Virus record (IMG/VR): IMGVR_UViG_3300030329_004891
Span: 1-36,798 of that record
DNA: 36,798 bases
DNA from: a virus
Reading direction: 5' to 3' (one strand)
Shown here in pieces: positions 28,021 through 36,471 of this stretch. Under the pieces are notes generated by a model. The model was not told the DNA's origin. It did no database searches and saw only the letters and a program-made list of their open reading frames with translations. Each line of letters starts with the position of its first letter. Position 1 is the stretch's first letter. Both the position numbers and the translations under genes were made by a program.

Positions 28021-28329
28021 TCAGGTGGAAAGGTGTCTTTCTGAACTATGGTCTCGGTCAAATTGCGTGTTATTTTTATAGGACTGCGTTATTGTATAAA
28101 AGCGGGAACACGCATTTACCTTTGATCTTCGCATAGCTACAAACTTTATTCCCTTAGAGGTTAGCGGTGCAGTTCTCCAACCTGGGCCAGTTTTGTATCG
28201 TCTGTCTCGACTAATTGGTGTTATCTGTCCTTTATGGCTATTGTACCAGTAAACATAGTACTTGCCGTTTACCTCTGACATCTGTAATGATGTTGCTTCG
28301 GTTACGTGATATTCTTTTAGTATATTCAT
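28021..28329 (-). CDS. leftward protein divergent from the Xre regulator
   Basis: A 102-residue basic protein with no known family. It contains NGKYYVYWYNSHKGQITPIS then RDRRYKTGPGWRTAPLTSKG, a beta-rich, Arg/Lys-rich part that could bind nucleic acid. It is transcribed from promoter copy A, with the ribosome site GTACTTAAGGAGGTAC five bases before ATG. Lying back to back with the Xre-type gene, it takes the place of a cro-like or early-switch gene, but it does not look like a helix-turn-helix protein. Confidence 0.65.
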   Translation of the reverse strand: MNILKEYHVTEATSLQMSEVNGKYYVYWYNSHKGQITPISRDRRYKTGPGWRTAPLTSKGIKFVAMRRSKVNACSRFYTITQSYKNNTQFDRDHSSERHLST

Positions 28330-28334
28330 TTTTT

Positions 28335-28385
28335 GTACCTCCTTAAGTACAAACTAAATATATCATGTATACTAAAGAGTGTATA
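28335..28385 (-). promoter_or_regulatory. leftward promoter/operator copy A with ribosome-site block
   Basis: Read leftward: the dyad TATACACTCTTTAGTATACA (28385-28366), -10-like ATGATATAT, and GTACTTAAGGAGGTAC (28350-28335) five bases before ATG 28329. The ribosome-site block is two bases longer than in the other copies (GTACTTGGAGGTAC). This copy lies between divergent genes, next to the Xre regulator. Confidence 0.75.
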
Positions 28386-28413
28386 CCCTTTATTATAAAA
28401 ATATAGGTTATGG

Positions 28414-28458: not shown

Positions 28459-28734
28459 ATGATAGGAAAAAAGAAAAAAACAGATAAAGAAATAATAGCT
28501 AAAAAAGAATTGAATTCTGAATTGTTTGCTTATAGTAAATATATTGAAGCCTATAATTTTGTTAAAACTTTTAAACCAGATTTAAAAAAAATTAGATTGG
28601 CAAAAGGTTACACACAGCAAACATTAGCTGATTTAATAGGTGTAACTAAAAGTTATATTTCTAAAGTAGAAAATGGTGGTTCTGGTTTAACTGCTGATTT
28701 TTTAGATAAAATTATAAAATTATTTTTGAAATAA
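28459..28734 (+). CDS. Xre/Cro-type helix-turn-helix regulator
   Basis: A 91-residue protein. The C-terminal 55 residues form an HTH_3 domain: LKKIRLAKGYTQQTLADLIG then VTKSYISKVENGGSGLTADF, with the recognition helix around VTKSYISKVENG. The basic N-terminal extension (MIGKKKKTDKE) and helix are of unknown use. No peptidase or oligomerisation domain is present, so it resembles a Cro-type repressor more than CI. It has a good ribosome site (TAGGAG) and is divergent from promoter copy A. It is the best candidate to bind the 20-bp dyads. Confidence 0.85.
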   Translation: MIGKKKKTDKEIIAKKELNSELFAYSKYIEAYNFVKTFKPDLKKIRLAKGYTQQTLADLIGVTKSYISKVENGGSGLTADFLDKIIKLFLK

Positions 28735-28735
28735 T

Positions 28736-29476
28736 TTGGCAGAATTATTTGATGAGATGGGAAAGTTTGTTACTATTCCCCATGCAATAATTAACGATAA
28801 TAACATTAATTCCTATGATCTTGCTGTTTATGTTGTGTTGATGAAACACATCAAAAGCAATAATAGACTTGTTTTCCCTGGACTTAAAACAATAGCTAAT
28901 TTGACAAAATGCTCCAGGGATAGAGTCATAAAAAGTATTGTTAATTTAGAACTACAAAAATGGCTAAAAGTAGACAGGAAAGCAGGAGGAGTTAATACCT
29001 ACCATTTAATTGTTAATCAGAACCAGTCGATCTCAGCGACTACTACCAGTCGATCTGAACGACTACCACCAGTCGACGTGGTCGACCCTAAGAAGAATAA
29101 TAATAAGAAGAATATATATAATGATATAGCAGATGAAGTTTTTGAATATTTAATTAATAAAAGTGGCAGATCAAGATTAAGAAAAACAAAGAATAGTTTG
29201 TTACCAATTATTAAGGCATTGAAAAACAAATACAGTAAAGAAGACCTATTTCACATAATAAAAGTGAAATGTTCAGAATGGAAAAACGATGATGTATTTA
29301 AGAAATATTTGCATCCATCAACTTTGTTTGCAAACAGGAATATAGATAAATATCTATCTCAAGAAGTTTCACAAGAAAAAACAATTAAAGATGTAGTATG
29401 TAAAAATTGTGGAAGTAAAAGTTTTATTGGATCGGGTGATAGAAGGAGGTGTTTAAAGTGCGAGAAGAAAATATAA
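28736..29476 (+). CDS. replication initiator with C-terminal phg_2220-like domain
   Basis: A 246-residue protein. The N-terminal winged-helix domain (KFVTIPHAIINDNNINSYDL, LKTIANLTKCSRDRVIKSIV) resembles phage replisome organizers. A low-complexity linker (about 95-125) holds the iterons at DNA level. The C-terminal part CSEWKNDDVFKKYLHPSTLF then ANRNIDKYLS is the phg_2220 pattern, followed by a zinc ribbon CKNCGS...CLKC. It would bind the origin and load DnaB, encoded next. Start TTG at 28736, one base after the regulator stop, without a clear ribosome site; ATG 28757 is an alternative. Confidence 0.82.
   Translation: MAELFDEMGKFVTIPHAIINDNNINSYDLAVYVVLMKHIKSNNRLVFPGLKTIANLTKCSRDRVIKSIVNLELQKWLKVDRKAGGVNTYHLIVNQNQSISATTTSRSERLPPVDVVDPKKNNNKKNIYNDIADEVFEYLINKSGRSRLRKTKNSLLPIIKALKNKYSKEDLFHIIKVKCSEWKNDDVFKKYLHPSTLFANRNIDKYLSQEVSQEKTIKDVVCKNCGSKSFIGSGDRRRCLKCEKKI
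29023..29137 (+). other. candidate replication origin: three 23-bp iterons and AT-rich stretch
   Basis: Inside the initiator gene are tandem units starting at 29023, 29046 and 29069, exactly 23 bases apart. Each begins CCAGTCGA; the first two share CCAGTCGATCT and CGACTAC, and the third is CCAGTCGACGTGGTCGACCC. Each unit holds an inverted repeat (AGTCG ... CGACT, or GTCGAC ... GTCGAC). They are far more GC-rich than the rest of the gene. A nearly pure A/T/G-purine tract of AAT and AAG repeats follows (29091-29137). Lambda has the same plan: iterons inside gene O followed by an AT-rich region. Confidence 0.7.
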
Positions 29477-30714
29477 ATGATATTGTTTTAGGTTTGCTTA
29501 TTAAATATAAAAAAGTTAGAGAGCAATTCATTAATGATTTGAATCAAGAGTTGTTTGAATTGGAAAGAGAAAAAGTACTCTTTGCTACTATTCAAGAATT
29601 AACATTACAAGATATAGACATAGAAATACCAATAATAAATGAACATTTAATAATAAAATATAAAGAAAATATAAATACTGTTTGTCCACCTTCGTGGTTT
29701 GCAAGTTTAACAGACTCTTTAATATCATCTGCTAATGCAAAGTTTTATATAGATAGATTATTTGATTTTAGAGAAGAAAAAAGAATAAAGGAGGTTTTAG
29801 AACTTGCCACGAAACATAGTTGGAATACTGAACAAATTGAGAGTGCATTACAAAAAATTGTAAAACCTAAATTTAAATATATTGATGGTAAGGAATTATC
29901 ATTATTAACTGGTAACGCTATTGATGATGCTGCTAAAAAGGGTGAGTTATATATAAAAGCAAGTTTGGGTTTGAAGTCAATTGATTCTATGCTTGGTGGT
30001 TTTAAGCCTGGAGAATTAATAATTATTGGTGCAAGACCAAGTGTAGGAAAAACTGCTGTTGGATTACAGTCTGCATTGCATATGACAATGAGTAAAAATT
30101 TATCAGTTGCTTTTTTTAGTTTAGAAATGTCAGCCCAAAGTTTAGGCATAAGACTTTTATCTATGTGTACAGGTATTAATCAAAGAAAGTTAATGTATAA
30201 TCCACAAATAAAAGACATAGAAAAAGCTACAGAAGTTTTACGAACCATATACGAAGCTAATCTATATGTAGCTACCAATAGCATAAAAACTATAAACATT
30301 AGAAAGATGTCACATCAATTAAAAAAAAATAAAAAATTAGATGCTGTTATTGTAGATTATATACAACTGATTACTCCTTCAGTAATAAAAGCAAATAGAA
30401 CTGAACAAGTATCGCAAATATCACGAGACTTGAAACTTATTGCAGAAGAATTGGAGGTGCCAATTATTGCACTTTCACAAGTAAGGAGGGAAAGCGATCA
30501 GGAAAAAAGACCACCTAAGTTAAGCGATTTAAGAGAGTCGGGATCATTAGAACAGGATAGTGATATAGTTTTATTATTACATAGAGAAAGGAATCCCATC
30601 ACTGGAGATTTGAGTGAAGAGGGTACTTTGAGTGTGAGTAAAAATAGGCATGGTGAAACAGGTAGTATTTTGGTACACTTTAATCCTGACAAAGTGAGGT
30701 ATGAAGAAAAGTGA
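29458..30714 (+). CDS. dnaB: replicative DNA helicase, DnaB-like
   Basis: A 418-residue helicase. The N-terminal helical domain (DIVLGLLIKYKKVREQFIND) is followed by the RecA-type motor: FKPGELIIIGARPSVGKTAV (Walker A), AVIVDYIQLI (Walker B), then PIIALSQVRRESDQEKRPPK and LSDLRESGSLEQDSDIVLLL (motifs H3/H4). A GTG at 29458, eight bases after AAGGAGG inside the initiator gene, is the best start. It unwinds DNA ahead of the fork and is the partner of the initiator. Confidence 0.94.
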   Translation: MREENINDIVLGLLIKYKKVREQFINDLNQELFELEREKVLFATIQELTLQDIDIEIPIINEHLIIKYKENINTVCPPSWFASLTDSLISSANAKFYIDRLFDFREEKRIKEVLELATKHSWNTEQIESALQKIVKPKFKYIDGKELSLLTGNAIDDAAKKGELYIKASLGLKSIDSMLGGFKPGELIIIGARPSVGKTAVGLQSALHMTMSKNLSVAFFSLEMSAQSLGIRLLSMCTGINQRKLMYNPQIKDIEKATEVLRTIYEANLYVATNSIKTINIRKMSHQLKKNKKLDAVIVDYIQLITPSVIKANRTEQVSQISRDLKLIAEELEVPIIALSQVRRESDQEKRPPKLSDLRESGSLEQDSDIVLLLHRERNPITGDLSEEGTLSVSKNRHGETGSILVHFNPDKVRYEEK

Positions 30715-31581: not shown

Positions 31582-32379
31582 ATGAAAGTATTAATAGTGT
31601 TGCAAGCAAGAAATGCAAGTACAAGATTTAAAAATAAAAGTTTATATCCTATAGGCAATATTTCGGCAATATCTCATCATTTAGAAAAAATGGTAAAATT
31701 AAAAGAGGTGTGTCAAAACTTAATAAAAATAGATTTAGGATTATGTACTACAGGTTTTAGTGAAGATGATATTCTAGTTCATTATGCTAAAAAGTTCCAT
31801 GTGAAACAAATAGTACGCGGAAAACCTTTACATTTATGGGAGCAATTTTATGATATTGTTCCTGGATATAAATTTTTTATGCGAATTTGTGGGGATCAGC
31901 CGTTTTTTAATTTGAAAATGGCAGAACATTTATTAAATGTTTTGTATCAAAATGAAGAGCATGATTATTATTCTTGGGTAACAAATAATAATATACCTAT
32001 TATGCAAACAAAAATAGGTTTAGGAACTGAAATAGTTAGAAGTTCAAAATTAAATACAAGAGTACAATTTAATCAAAATTATATGGAACATTTAACTCCT
32101 AAGTTTTATCTGGAAAAAGGACACAAAACTAAATTTATAGAAATACCAGAATTTATAACAAAATCAAAAGTATCTTTAAGTATTGATTATTTAGAAGATT
32201 GGATCATAGCTAATAAATGTTATTATGAATTAAAAGAAAAAACACAAGATTTAAAAGTTTTGTCACAATGGTTTATGAAAAATAAAATAGCTAATTCTTT
32301 ATTACAAGGAAGAAACAAAGCAAAAGAAAAATACAGGGGAAATAAATATAAAGGGGAAAAATGGGAACTTACATTATAG
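31582..32379 (+). CDS. SpsF-like cytidylyltransferase (CMP-nonulosonate type)
   Basis: A 265-residue protein. The N-terminus LIVLQARNASTRFKNKSLYP is the nucleotide-binding Q-A-R-x-x-S-x-R-F-K-x-K loop of SpsF/CMP-sugar synthetases, and FFMRICGDQPFFNLKMAEHL is the G-D-x-P-F motif. Its stop lies 19 bases inside the next gene, a NeuB-like synthase, so the two form one pathway: acid sugar made from PEP, then activated with CTP. The C-terminus is basic (SLLQGRNKAKEKYRGNK). The exact sugar is unknown. Confidence 0.75.
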   Translation: MKVLIVLQARNASTRFKNKSLYPIGNISAISHHLEKMVKLKEVCQNLIKIDLGLCTTGFSEDDILVHYAKKFHVKQIVRGKPLHLWEQFYDIVPGYKFFMRICGDQPFFNLKMAEHLLNVLYQNEEHDYYSWVTNNNIPIMQTKIGLGTEIVRSSKLNTRVQFNQNYMEHLTPKFYLEKGHKTKFIEIPEFITKSKVSLSIDYLEDWIIANKCYYELKEKTQDLKVLSQWFMKNKIANSLLQGRNKAKEKYRGNKYKGEKWELTL

Positions 32380-33461
32380 CTGAGATTGGTCAAAATCATA
32401 ACGGTAGTAAAAGAATAGCATCAGAATTAATAGATGTAGCAAGTCAAGAAATCATTCACGAAGGTGAAAAATTAAAAAAAGCAAATGCCGTAAAGTTTCA
32501 AATAAGAGATTTGGATTATGAATTAAATGAAGATTCTTATTTAAAAGAATATAAAAGTGTTAATGCTTTTGCAGATACTTACGGAAAGCATAGAGAATAT
32601 TTAGAAATTCCAATAGAAGAATATAAAGATTTAGCAGAAGAAGCAAGAGATAAAGGGTTAGATGTTGTTGTTACTGTTTGCAGCCCAACTATTATAGAAA
32701 AAATAAAAAAAATAATAAAACCTGATGCCTGGAAAGTAGCAAGTAGGGATTTAGGAAACATTCCATTATTAGAAGCTATTAATGAAGTGGACCCAAAAAA
32801 AGTTATTTTAAGTTCTGGTATGCATCAATTAGCAGATATAGAAGAAGCTGTTTACAGATTAGTGCTGCCAGAAATTATAGGAATCCTGCATTGTATAAGT
32901 GCTTACCCTACTAAGTATGAAGATTTAAATTTACGGGGTATGGAACAAATTAAAGAAAATTTTAAATCATATAATGGAACAACATTTAAAATAGGTTTTT
33001 CAGATCATACAGCAGGAGTTTTAGCTCCATCTGTTGCTGTAGCTTTAGGAGCACAAATTATAGAAAAACACATAACTCTAGATCATAGTATGAAAGGATC
33101 AGACCATTTTGGAAGTATGAATAGGGAAGGCTGGTTTAGGGTTGTTAGGGATATTAGAAATACTGAAAAAGCTATTTCTTTATGTCAAAGATTAAATGAC
33201 GGAATAAAAAATCCAGAAGAACAAAAAACATGGAACAAAATAGGTAGGGTTGCCTGTTATAAAAACAATATTAATAAAGGACAATATTTGGAAATAGAAG
33301 ATGTAATAATGTTATCACCTCCATCAAATGGACATTTAACAGGTATATCATGGGAAGATGCTTATAAATTTAACAATAAACCTTTACAAAAAGATGTAAA
33401 AGAAAATGAAATAATAATCCCTGAGCTTCACTTTCCTTTTGTTTCAAAGTATTATAAGTAA
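32361..33461 (+). CDS. NeuB/SpsE-like nonulosonic acid synthase
   Basis: A 366-residue NeuB-family enzyme: YIIAEIGQNHNGS at the N-terminus, AVKFQIRDLD, LHCISAYPTKYEDLNLRGME, FKIGFSDHTAGVLAPSVAVA and AQIIEKHITLDHSMKGSDHF, all hallmarks of the TIM-barrel that condenses PEP with an N-acetyl-hexosamine. The last 60 residues are a SAF-type antifreeze-like domain (GRVACYKNNINKGQYLEIED). It could make sialic, legionaminic or pseudaminic acid. No sugar-precursor gene is present, so it likely uses host intermediates. Ribosome site AAGGGG before the ATG. Confidence 0.9.
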   Translation: MGTYIIAEIGQNHNGSKRIASELIDVASQEIIHEGEKLKKANAVKFQIRDLDYELNEDSYLKEYKSVNAFADTYGKHREYLEIPIEEYKDLAEEARDKGLDVVVTVCSPTIIEKIKKIIKPDAWKVASRDLGNIPLLEAINEVDPKKVILSSGMHQLADIEEAVYRLVLPEIIGILHCISAYPTKYEDLNLRGMEQIKENFKSYNGTTFKIGFSDHTAGVLAPSVAVALGAQIIEKHITLDHSMKGSDHFGSMNREGWFRVVRDIRNTEKAISLCQRLNDGIKNPEEQKTWNKIGRVACYKNNINKGQYLEIEDVIMLSPPSNGHLTGISWEDAYKFNNKPLQKDVKENEIIIPELHFPFVSKYYK

Positions 33462-34516: not shown

Positions 34517-34819
34517 TTATTGTAAATTGCCTGTAGGTTCTTCTGTCCAATGATCAAAATCATCTTGGTCCAAATTATCCATGTTGTAGTGTCTGCTTAA
34601 TAAATTTTCCATTTTTATTTCTACTTTGTTTTTACTTAGTTTTAATACTTTTTCAATGTTAGCTATTTCTAATAGTTCTTTTTCTAAATTTGCTAAATGT
34701 TTTTTAACAGCATCAGCTACAGCAGTTTCATCAGCTAAATGATTTTTAGCTAAAGTAAAATCAAGTGCATATCCTTTTAATCCAACTTCATCATTAATTA
34801 AAGAATTATTTTTTTCCAT
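34517..34819 (-). CDS. leftward cassette protein (100 aa)
   Basis: A 100-residue acidic helical protein: GYALDFTLAKNHLADETAVA then HLANLEKELLEIANIEKVLK, ending in an acidic tail. No family known. The start is ATG 34819, six bases after GTACTTGGAGGTAC. The longer frame to 34870 only translates the promoter leader. Single-gene unit with its own promoter (copy B) and terminator. Confidence 0.72.
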   Translation of the reverse strand: MEKNNSLINDEVGLKGYALDFTLAKNHLADETAVADAVKKHLANLEKELLEIANIEKVLKLSKNKVEIKMENLLSRHYNMDNLDQDDFDHWTEEPTGNLQ

Positions 34820-34825
34820 TTTTTT

Positions 34826-34883
34826 GTACCTCCAAGTACTTTTAAACTTAATTAAATATATCATATACACTAAAAGGTGTATA
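34826..34883 (-). promoter_or_regulatory. leftward promoter/operator copy B
   Basis: Read leftward: TATACACCTTTTAGTGTATA (34883-34864), -10-like ATGATATAT, TTAATTAAG, then GTACTTGGAGGTAC (34839-34826). The right arm is a perfect complement of the consensus TATACACT; the left arm differs at one base. Confidence 0.8.
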
Positions 34884-35819: not shown

Positions 35820-36077
35820 TTAATCTCTTTCGTAAAATATTCCAATCGTACTTCCATAATAATCTTTCCATCCAGTTTCATGAATAGAACTTAATGCGAC
35901 TGCTTCCCTCCAAGTTGGTAAAGCGTCTTCATCTGGATATTCTTTTTCCCATTCTATAGTAGCAATGTCATTATTTATCATAATAATCTTTCCATGTCCT
36001 TCTGAAATTCCTGCACCATAATCAGCCCTAACCTTAGGTAATACTTCACTTAAAATTGTTGATTTGTGTTGTTCCAT
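35820..36077 (-). CDS. leftward cassette protein (85 aa)
   Basis: An 85-residue protein (EGHGKIIMINNDIATIEWEK; WREAVALSSIHETGWKDYYG), beta-rich and acidic. No family known. The start is ATG 36077, three bases after GTACTTGGAGGTAC. The longer frame to 36248 translates the promoter leader, giving the same IYLIKFKSTWRYK seen before the 34.5 kb gene, which shows that this is shared control DNA, not protein. Confidence 0.72.
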   Translation of the reverse strand: MEQHKSTILSEVLPKVRADYGAGISEGHGKIIMINNDIATIEWEKEYPDEDALPTWREAVALSSIHETGWKDYYGSTIGIFYERD

Positions 36078-36080
36078 TTT

Positions 36081-36138
36081 GTACCTCCAAGTACTTTTAA
36101 ATTTAATTAAATATATCATAAACACTAAATAGTGTATA
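36081..36138 (-). promoter_or_regulatory. leftward promoter/operator copy E
   Basis: Read leftward: TATACACTATTTAGTGTTTA (36138-36119), ATGATATAT, TTAATTAAA, then GTACTTGGAGGTAC (36094-36081). The inner arms ACACTA and TAGTGT are perfect. It lies between the leftward gene and the rightward gene at 36193. Confidence 0.82.
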
Positions 36139-36192
36139 TAAGTATTAGCTTTTTTATTGAAAAAAATAATAAAAAATAATAAAATAGGATAT

Positions 36193-36471
36193 ATGTTTAC
36201 AGAGTTTATTGAAGGTTTTAAAGCGATGGAAAACTCTGCAAAATACACAGGTAAAATTAAAAATCAATTTCAAATTAAATATTGTAATAAGCATTTTAAA
36301 GTTATAAAAGCAATGGAAAAAGGTGATCCTGGGTTAGCTTTAGAATTTGAAACTTATGCAAAATATAAGATGAATAAAACAGGTTGTTCTATATGTCAAT
36401 ATATAGCTCAAGTAGAGTGGGGGCATAAAGAATATATGAGGGGGGGTATTGCAGAAACCAGACAGAACTAA
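36193..36471 (+). CDS. small Cys/His metal-motif protein
   Basis: A 92-residue protein with IKYCNKHFKVIKAMEKGD then NKTGCSICQYIAQVEWGHKE: a C-x2-H pair and a C-x2-C pair, probably one zinc site. The start at ATG 36193 has AGGA upstream; the TTG at 36157 lies in the control region. It overlaps the HNH gene by 23 bases. Possibly related to HNH cofactors, but no family is certain. Confidence 0.6.
   Translation: MFTEFIEGFKAMENSAKYTGKIKNQFQIKYCNKHFKVIKAMEKGDPGLALEFETYAKYKMNKTGCSICQYIAQVEWGHKEYMRGGIAETRQN

Follow-up and report, generated by a model that had tools for sequence, protein, structure and literature searches.

Does the tandem repeat in the middle of this phage's replication initiator gene mark the site at which the phage starts its replication, or do the repeats owe their position to regulation, to slippage, or to some other DNA transaction? 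The virus record analysed here (36.8 kb, hereafter the window) carries a single strong array of inverted-repeat units, and this array is probably, at roughly 87%, the theta replication origin of the phage, of the iteron type and nested within its own initiator gene, a reading drawn from sequence comparisons and from analogy with characterized systems.

The initiator gene and its surroundings

The replication initiator gene (28736..29476, plus strand; 246 aa) was recognized from the list of open reading frames, Pfam, PHROGs, and AlphaFold; its start codon is TTG as listed, and a later ATG at 28757 is a possible alternative. The product combines an HTH_36 winged helix (aa 23-77, Pfam E 3e-9) and a Phg_2220_C helical domain (aa 136-207) in one protein, both above the Pfam gathering thresholds (53.1 and 37.1 bits where 27 and 25 bits are required, respectively), and matched phrog_428, annotated as ‘replication initiation protein’, with E 2e-30. 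Phage_rep_O (PF04492) gave no match at E ≤ 0.1, with weak O-like PHROGs only (phrog_678, 2.7e-4), and RepA_N (PF06970) gave no Pfam match, similarity to that family being confined to the level of the fold. The AlphaFold model contained a confident winged helix (residues ~7-98) and a helical C-terminal domain (127-208), and pLDDT fell below 50 solely at residues 96-124, which form a disordered linker between HTH_36 and Phg_2220_C whose codons lie in the array and in the first part of the AT-rich tract that follows it. The placement of the array in the linker region that an earlier sequence-only reading had proposed agrees with the structural model; its description of the linker as low-complexity does not hold over the array itself, where the protein is disordered instead.

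The best structural matches of the N-terminal domain were plasmid Rep proteins (4pql, Z 9.2; 4pt7, Z 9.1), a Rep-DNA complex (5kbj, Z 8.5), and DnaD (Z 8.4), with unrelated winged helices scoring just behind them. A fold search with the isolated C-terminal domain returned nothing above Z 4.9 (AAA+ proteins, which were not trusted); the resemblance to DnaD was seen for the N-terminal domain. The C-terminal tail (29398-29473) encodes a zinc-ribbon-like CxxC...CxxC arrangement that is absent from the C-termini of the relatives listed. No close relatives of either the initiator or the helicase were obtained in single-protein searches of viral_contigs, and tblastn recovered no plasmids carrying the N-terminal domain of the window protein.

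The 3′ end of the initiator gene is overlapped by a gene for a DnaB-type replicative helicase with both N- and C-terminal domains (29449..30714, plus strand; DnaB_C 6.5e-72, DnaB N-domain 1.8e-9, phrog_19), and a Cro/CI-like HTH regulator lies directly upstream in the same direction (28459..28734, plus strand; HTH_3 3.7e-14). An SSB, an exonuclease, and an annealing protein of the ERF type are further products of upstream genes. A candidate operator, GTATAC-N8-GTATAC (28366-28390), lies in the divergent intergenic region that precedes the regulator; a promoter and terminator scan gave results at chance level. Elsewhere in the window, a cytidylyltransferase gene (CTP_transf_3) adjoins one for a sialic/legionaminic acid synthase of the NeuB type (31582-33461; NeuB E 8e-58), a pair that is unusual for a tailed phage and may belong to a surface-sugar pathway, and two minus-strand ORFs (34517-34870 and 35820-36248) have the peptide MIYLIKFKSTWRYK in common near their N-termini, which suggests a duplicated promoter or leader segment.

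A dyad array in the linker-encoding DNA

The array (29022..29090, plus strand) consists of three 23-bp units, specifically unit 1 (29022-29044, ACCAGTCGATCTCAGCGACTACT), unit 2 (29045-29067, ACCAGTCGATCTGAACGACTACC), and unit 3 (29068-29090, ACCAGTCGACGTGGTCGACCCTA), which are the putative initiator-binding sites; the three units had been described before with starts at 29023, 29046, and 29069, and the true register is one base to the left. Each unit contains a dyad, given without a strand: GTCGATCTCAGCGAC at 29026..29040, GTCGATCTGAACGAC at 29049..29063, and GTCGACGTGGTCGAC at 29072..29086. The inverted repeat ascribed to every unit is present in all three as GTCG-N7-CGAC; the longer form AGTCG-N7-CGACT is limited to units 1 and 2, unit 3 ending in CGACC. 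In a scan of the whole window, GTCG-N7-CGAC occurred without mismatch in the three units and nowhere else, and no second array of the kind known from phage SPP1 was found, apart from one isolated dyad with one mismatch at 28197, which is at chance level. The array has the top TRF score in the window (89; runner-up 53). As had been noted, the units are GC-rich within an AT-rich gene (56% GC in the array vs. 31% gene-wide), and only 0.014% of the 68-bp segments of the window are as GC-rich.

The same protein was recoded synonymously 5,000 times with the phage’s own codon usage. None of the recodings reproduced the repeat (observed repeat score 24.5; mean of the recodings 10.4, maximum 16.0), and none reached a comparable GC content over the array stretch. 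The earlier proposal that selection seems to act on the DNA is supported for the array; the AT content of the adjoining tract is explained by the residues encoded. Such repeats could also arise without any DNA-level function, from tandem duplication or slippage in an unconstrained disordered linker; the linker is indeed disordered and tolerant, and units 1 and 2 share 87% identity. Against this, a period of 23 bp is not divisible by three, which places the copies in three codon phases, where they encode different residues and make no protein repeat. The arms are also conserved where the spacer has diverged, with between-unit changes in five of seven spacer columns vs. one of ten arm columns (Fisher p = 0.035, a weak result given only three units).

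The array is followed immediately on its 3′ side by an AT-rich, purine-rich tract (29090..29135, plus strand; 20% GC), a candidate DNA unwinding element and the weakest part of the assignment. The tract is present as the sequence-only reading had described it but is not exceptional, since 7.9% of equal windows are as AT-rich. Its status as an independently selected element found no support in the recoding, in which its AT content was what the amino acids KKNNNKKNIYND force; those residues may themselves reflect selection at the DNA level. Trinucleotide-like repeats of the TAA/CTA/AAC kind are frequent in AT tracts 3′ of such arrays (the window tract and those of L144, L163, L174, and L123) and vaguely resemble DnaA-trio elements, a likeness that is confounded by coding periodicity. 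GC skew, which had been suggested as a check, gave no origin signal: the cumulative curve climbs almost throughout, with no turning point at the array.

Blind recovery of the same layout

Viral contigs were scanned, on DNA sequence alone, for pairs of GTCG-N7-CGAC dyads set in 23-bp register, and ORFs at the resulting loci were called initiator-like when they matched, at E < 0.05, a profile built on 25 relatives; since the profile rests on these 25, distant members are under-counted. The search returned 107 loci, of which 50 lay in initiator-like ORFs. The proportion rose with the length of the array, from 14/65 at two-unit loci, where the ORFs were mainly other genes (e.g., terminases), to 36/42 at loci with at least three chained units (p = 4e-11), and 18 of the 20 low-GC loci were in initiator-like ORFs. 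A control dyad matched in base composition and geometry, but lacking the CpG, gave 32 loci, none of them in an initiator-like ORF. HTH_36 was present in 21 of the 37 blind-found proteins scanned (including that of the window); some of the proteins carried Phage_rep_O or RepA_N, and the C-terminal domains were mostly of other kinds.

Across 42 distinct arrays, the spacing was mostly 22 or 23 bp. On the coding strand, mean AT content was 0.62 in the 45 nt 3′ of the arrays vs. 0.48 in the 45 nt 5′ (41 cases compared; p = 3e-7, which is optimistic because the arrays are partly related), and the AT-rich 3′ side held in most GC-rich genomes too; the position of the window tract, 3′ of its array, is thus the typical one. 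The agreement of the window array and its AT tract with this blind-found layout is the strongest argument for the array as an origin. GTCG-N7-CGAC arrays at 22-23 bp recur in initiator genes through the set (L121-L227), and the commonest unit is GTCGGAAAAACCGAC. The matches listed by a literature search with the repeat string look unrelated.

One dyad code and one reader domain that recur across otherwise different initiators form a pattern in the sequences that goes beyond routine annotation. Tentatively, GTCG-N7-CGAC at 22-23 bp may be an iteron code that is shared widely and has a single class of winged helix as its reader, often with [RK][DE] starting the recognition helix, and the N-terminal domain together with the linker-encoding DNA may form a swappable cassette of origin and reader that has been re-joined to unrelated C-terminal domains across low- and high-GC phages; this broader idea is possible but less likely than not. 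As a mark of specificity, [RK][DE] was set aside as suggestive only, the pair being present also in L099 and L101, which have other repeats.

Repeats and domain exchange among relatives

In total, 36 relatives with the common C-terminal domain were gathered, and 26 non-redundant genes, including that of the window, were tested for direct repeats in the 200 nt before the C-terminal domain (p ≤ 0.01 against dinucleotide shuffles), with the 200 nt on either side as controls. A linker kept by relatives that lack the repeat had been named as the observation that would speak against the origin reading; repeats were found in 23/26 linkers, vs. 1/26 of the preceding and 1/26 of the following segments. 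Short inverted repeats (p ≤ 0.05) were similarly concentrated, in 11/26 linkers vs. 1/26 in each flank. The relatives L092-L094, L100, and L115 have linkers without significant direct repeats, and their origins may be elsewhere or degenerate.

The repeat sequences are mostly unlike between members of the family, as in the Marinitoga phage MPV1, with an 11-bp linker repeat (GCAACAGCAAC), and a Lactobacillus bombicola genome contig, with 24-bp units containing GTGACACACATGTCAC. Periods divisible by three account for 17 of 23, so the family signal may in part reflect tandem duplication at the protein level, and some of the repeats are AT-rich purine runs; for both reasons, not every family repeat is taken to be an iteron. 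Although the many periods divisible by three would suit slippage, the enrichment of dyads in linkers across the family and the recurrence of dyad and register in distant initiators speak against it, as do the codon phases and conserved arms of the window array, and slippage without DNA-level function is considered very unlikely for this array.

The family repeats change along with the N-terminal domain while the C-terminal domain stays, in what are natural chimeras. L089 (2030-2797) and L090 (1111-1833) are 100% identical in the C-terminal domain, only 17% in the N-terminal domain, and differ in their iterons, and L102 and L111 follow the same pattern (C-terminal domain 90%, N-terminal domain 16%, iterons different). 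Conversely, L101 and L116 are more alike in the N-terminal domain (57%) than in the C-terminal domain (40%) and have kept a 24-bp array layout. This tracking of the N-terminal domain by the repeats, along with the location of the array inside the initiator gene, also argues against a partition (parS-like), packaging, or recombination site. The sites of the array are palindromic and tandem, which would suit such a role, and the window does contain an ORF with a weak ParB-like domain (108-623, E 5e-5); however, that ORF is ~28 kb from the array, beside a C5 cytosine methyltransferase gene with which it spans 108-1614, and such a role for the array is regarded as extremely improbable.

Comparison with established in-gene origins

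The sequence-only reading had likened the locus to the plan of the lambda O gene. In layout the likeness is close: the lambda O iterons start at 39034, 39054, 39078, and 39101, in mid-gene, and are followed by an A-rich tract. In family membership it fails, given the lack of a Phage_rep_O match. The in-gene origin has been shown experimentally for lambda and Stx phages (PMC7466680), whose O genes, like the window gene, carry in their middle a tandem series of dyad iterons, at distances of 20-24 bp, and then an A-rich unwinding tract, to which the AT tract of the window would be the candidate counterpart; the iterons number four in lambda and three here, and their sequences are unrelated. Lambda relies on its loader P and the DnaB of the host, whereas the window phage encodes a DnaB-type helicase of its own. 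This last trait is shared with SPP1 (PMC6316719), in which direct repeats and an AT-rich unwinding element in gene 38, encoding the origin-binding protein gp38, constitute the experimentally shown in-gene origin oriL (PMC6316719). SPP1 differs in its additional origin, oriR, and in its separate loader protein, gp39; in the window, neither a second array nor a loader was recognized.

The TP901-1 Rep (ORF13) and Tuc2009 Rep2009 proteins are replisome organisers that bind direct repeats in their own genes, a shown phage ori (PMC8965321). TP901-1 Rep resembles the window protein in its HTH_36 N-terminal domain (marginal) and its match to phrog_428 (6e-18), and the two dairy phages differ from the window in their C-terminal domains, which are DnaB_2 and Rep_Org_C rather than Phg_2220_C, and in their repeat sequences. 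Since the layout is that of ori-lambda and TP901-1 Rep, a closer relative, has a proven origin within its gene, the window case belongs to a known kind. In the staphylococcal plasmid pSK41, the winged-helix N-terminal domain binds four Rep boxes located centrally in rep, the middle of which encodes the linker, and pPR9, a natural chimera of pSK41 in which the N-terminal domain, here a phage-type HTH_36, and the origin region have both been exchanged, supports replication (PMC5703833). The likeness to pSK41 RepA_N and pPR9 lies in the fold matches already given (Z 9.2, 9.1, and 8.5) and in a swap of N-terminal domain with repeats as seen among the relatives; the window protein differs in lacking the RepA_N domain and in drawing its C-terminal domain from a different family.

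These systems also bear on the possibility that the array is an intragenic operator, at which the initiator or a Cro-like regulator binds the dyads mainly to control transcription of the operon, with replication starting elsewhere. The dyads have the shapes of ordinary winged-helix or HTH operators, a Cro-like regulator is encoded directly upstream, and expression can also be regulated by binding within a gene; yet the array sits in mid-gene, away from the position of a promoter, and several systems have a proven origin of this layout. Its place in the linker, the AT tract on its 3′ side, and its recurrence in initiator genes with unrelated C-terminal domains all fit origins, and an operator role to the exclusion of an origin is therefore judged very unlikely.

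Proposed course of initiation and significance

By analogy with lambda, SPP1, TP901-1/Tuc2009, and pSK41, from which the steps of binding, opening, and loading are inferred, an origin at the array would work as follows. The N-terminal domain would bind the GTCG-N7-CGAC sites, probably as one dimer per dyad, and the 23-bp spacing, equal to two helical turns, would place the dyads on roughly one face of the helix. Strain from the nucleoprotein complex so formed would melt the AT tract (29090-29135), whereupon the C-terminal domain would recruit or position the phage's own DnaB helicase, the product of the next gene, with host polymerases completing the replisome. We propose that selection bears on the linker-encoding DNA as a binding site, and that the protein segment itself can for this reason afford to be disordered.

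The locus adds a new example to a layout already familiar from staphylococcal plasmids, dairy phages, and lambda, and does not constitute a new kind; an unclassified virus genome gains with it a probable origin and initiator. The blind search shows that initiator genes that are hard to recognize from protein sequence can be found with a simple DNA pattern. For the family, origin sites and DNA-binding domains appear to travel together, and by pairing natural swaps the recognition code between phage initiators and their iterons becomes testable.
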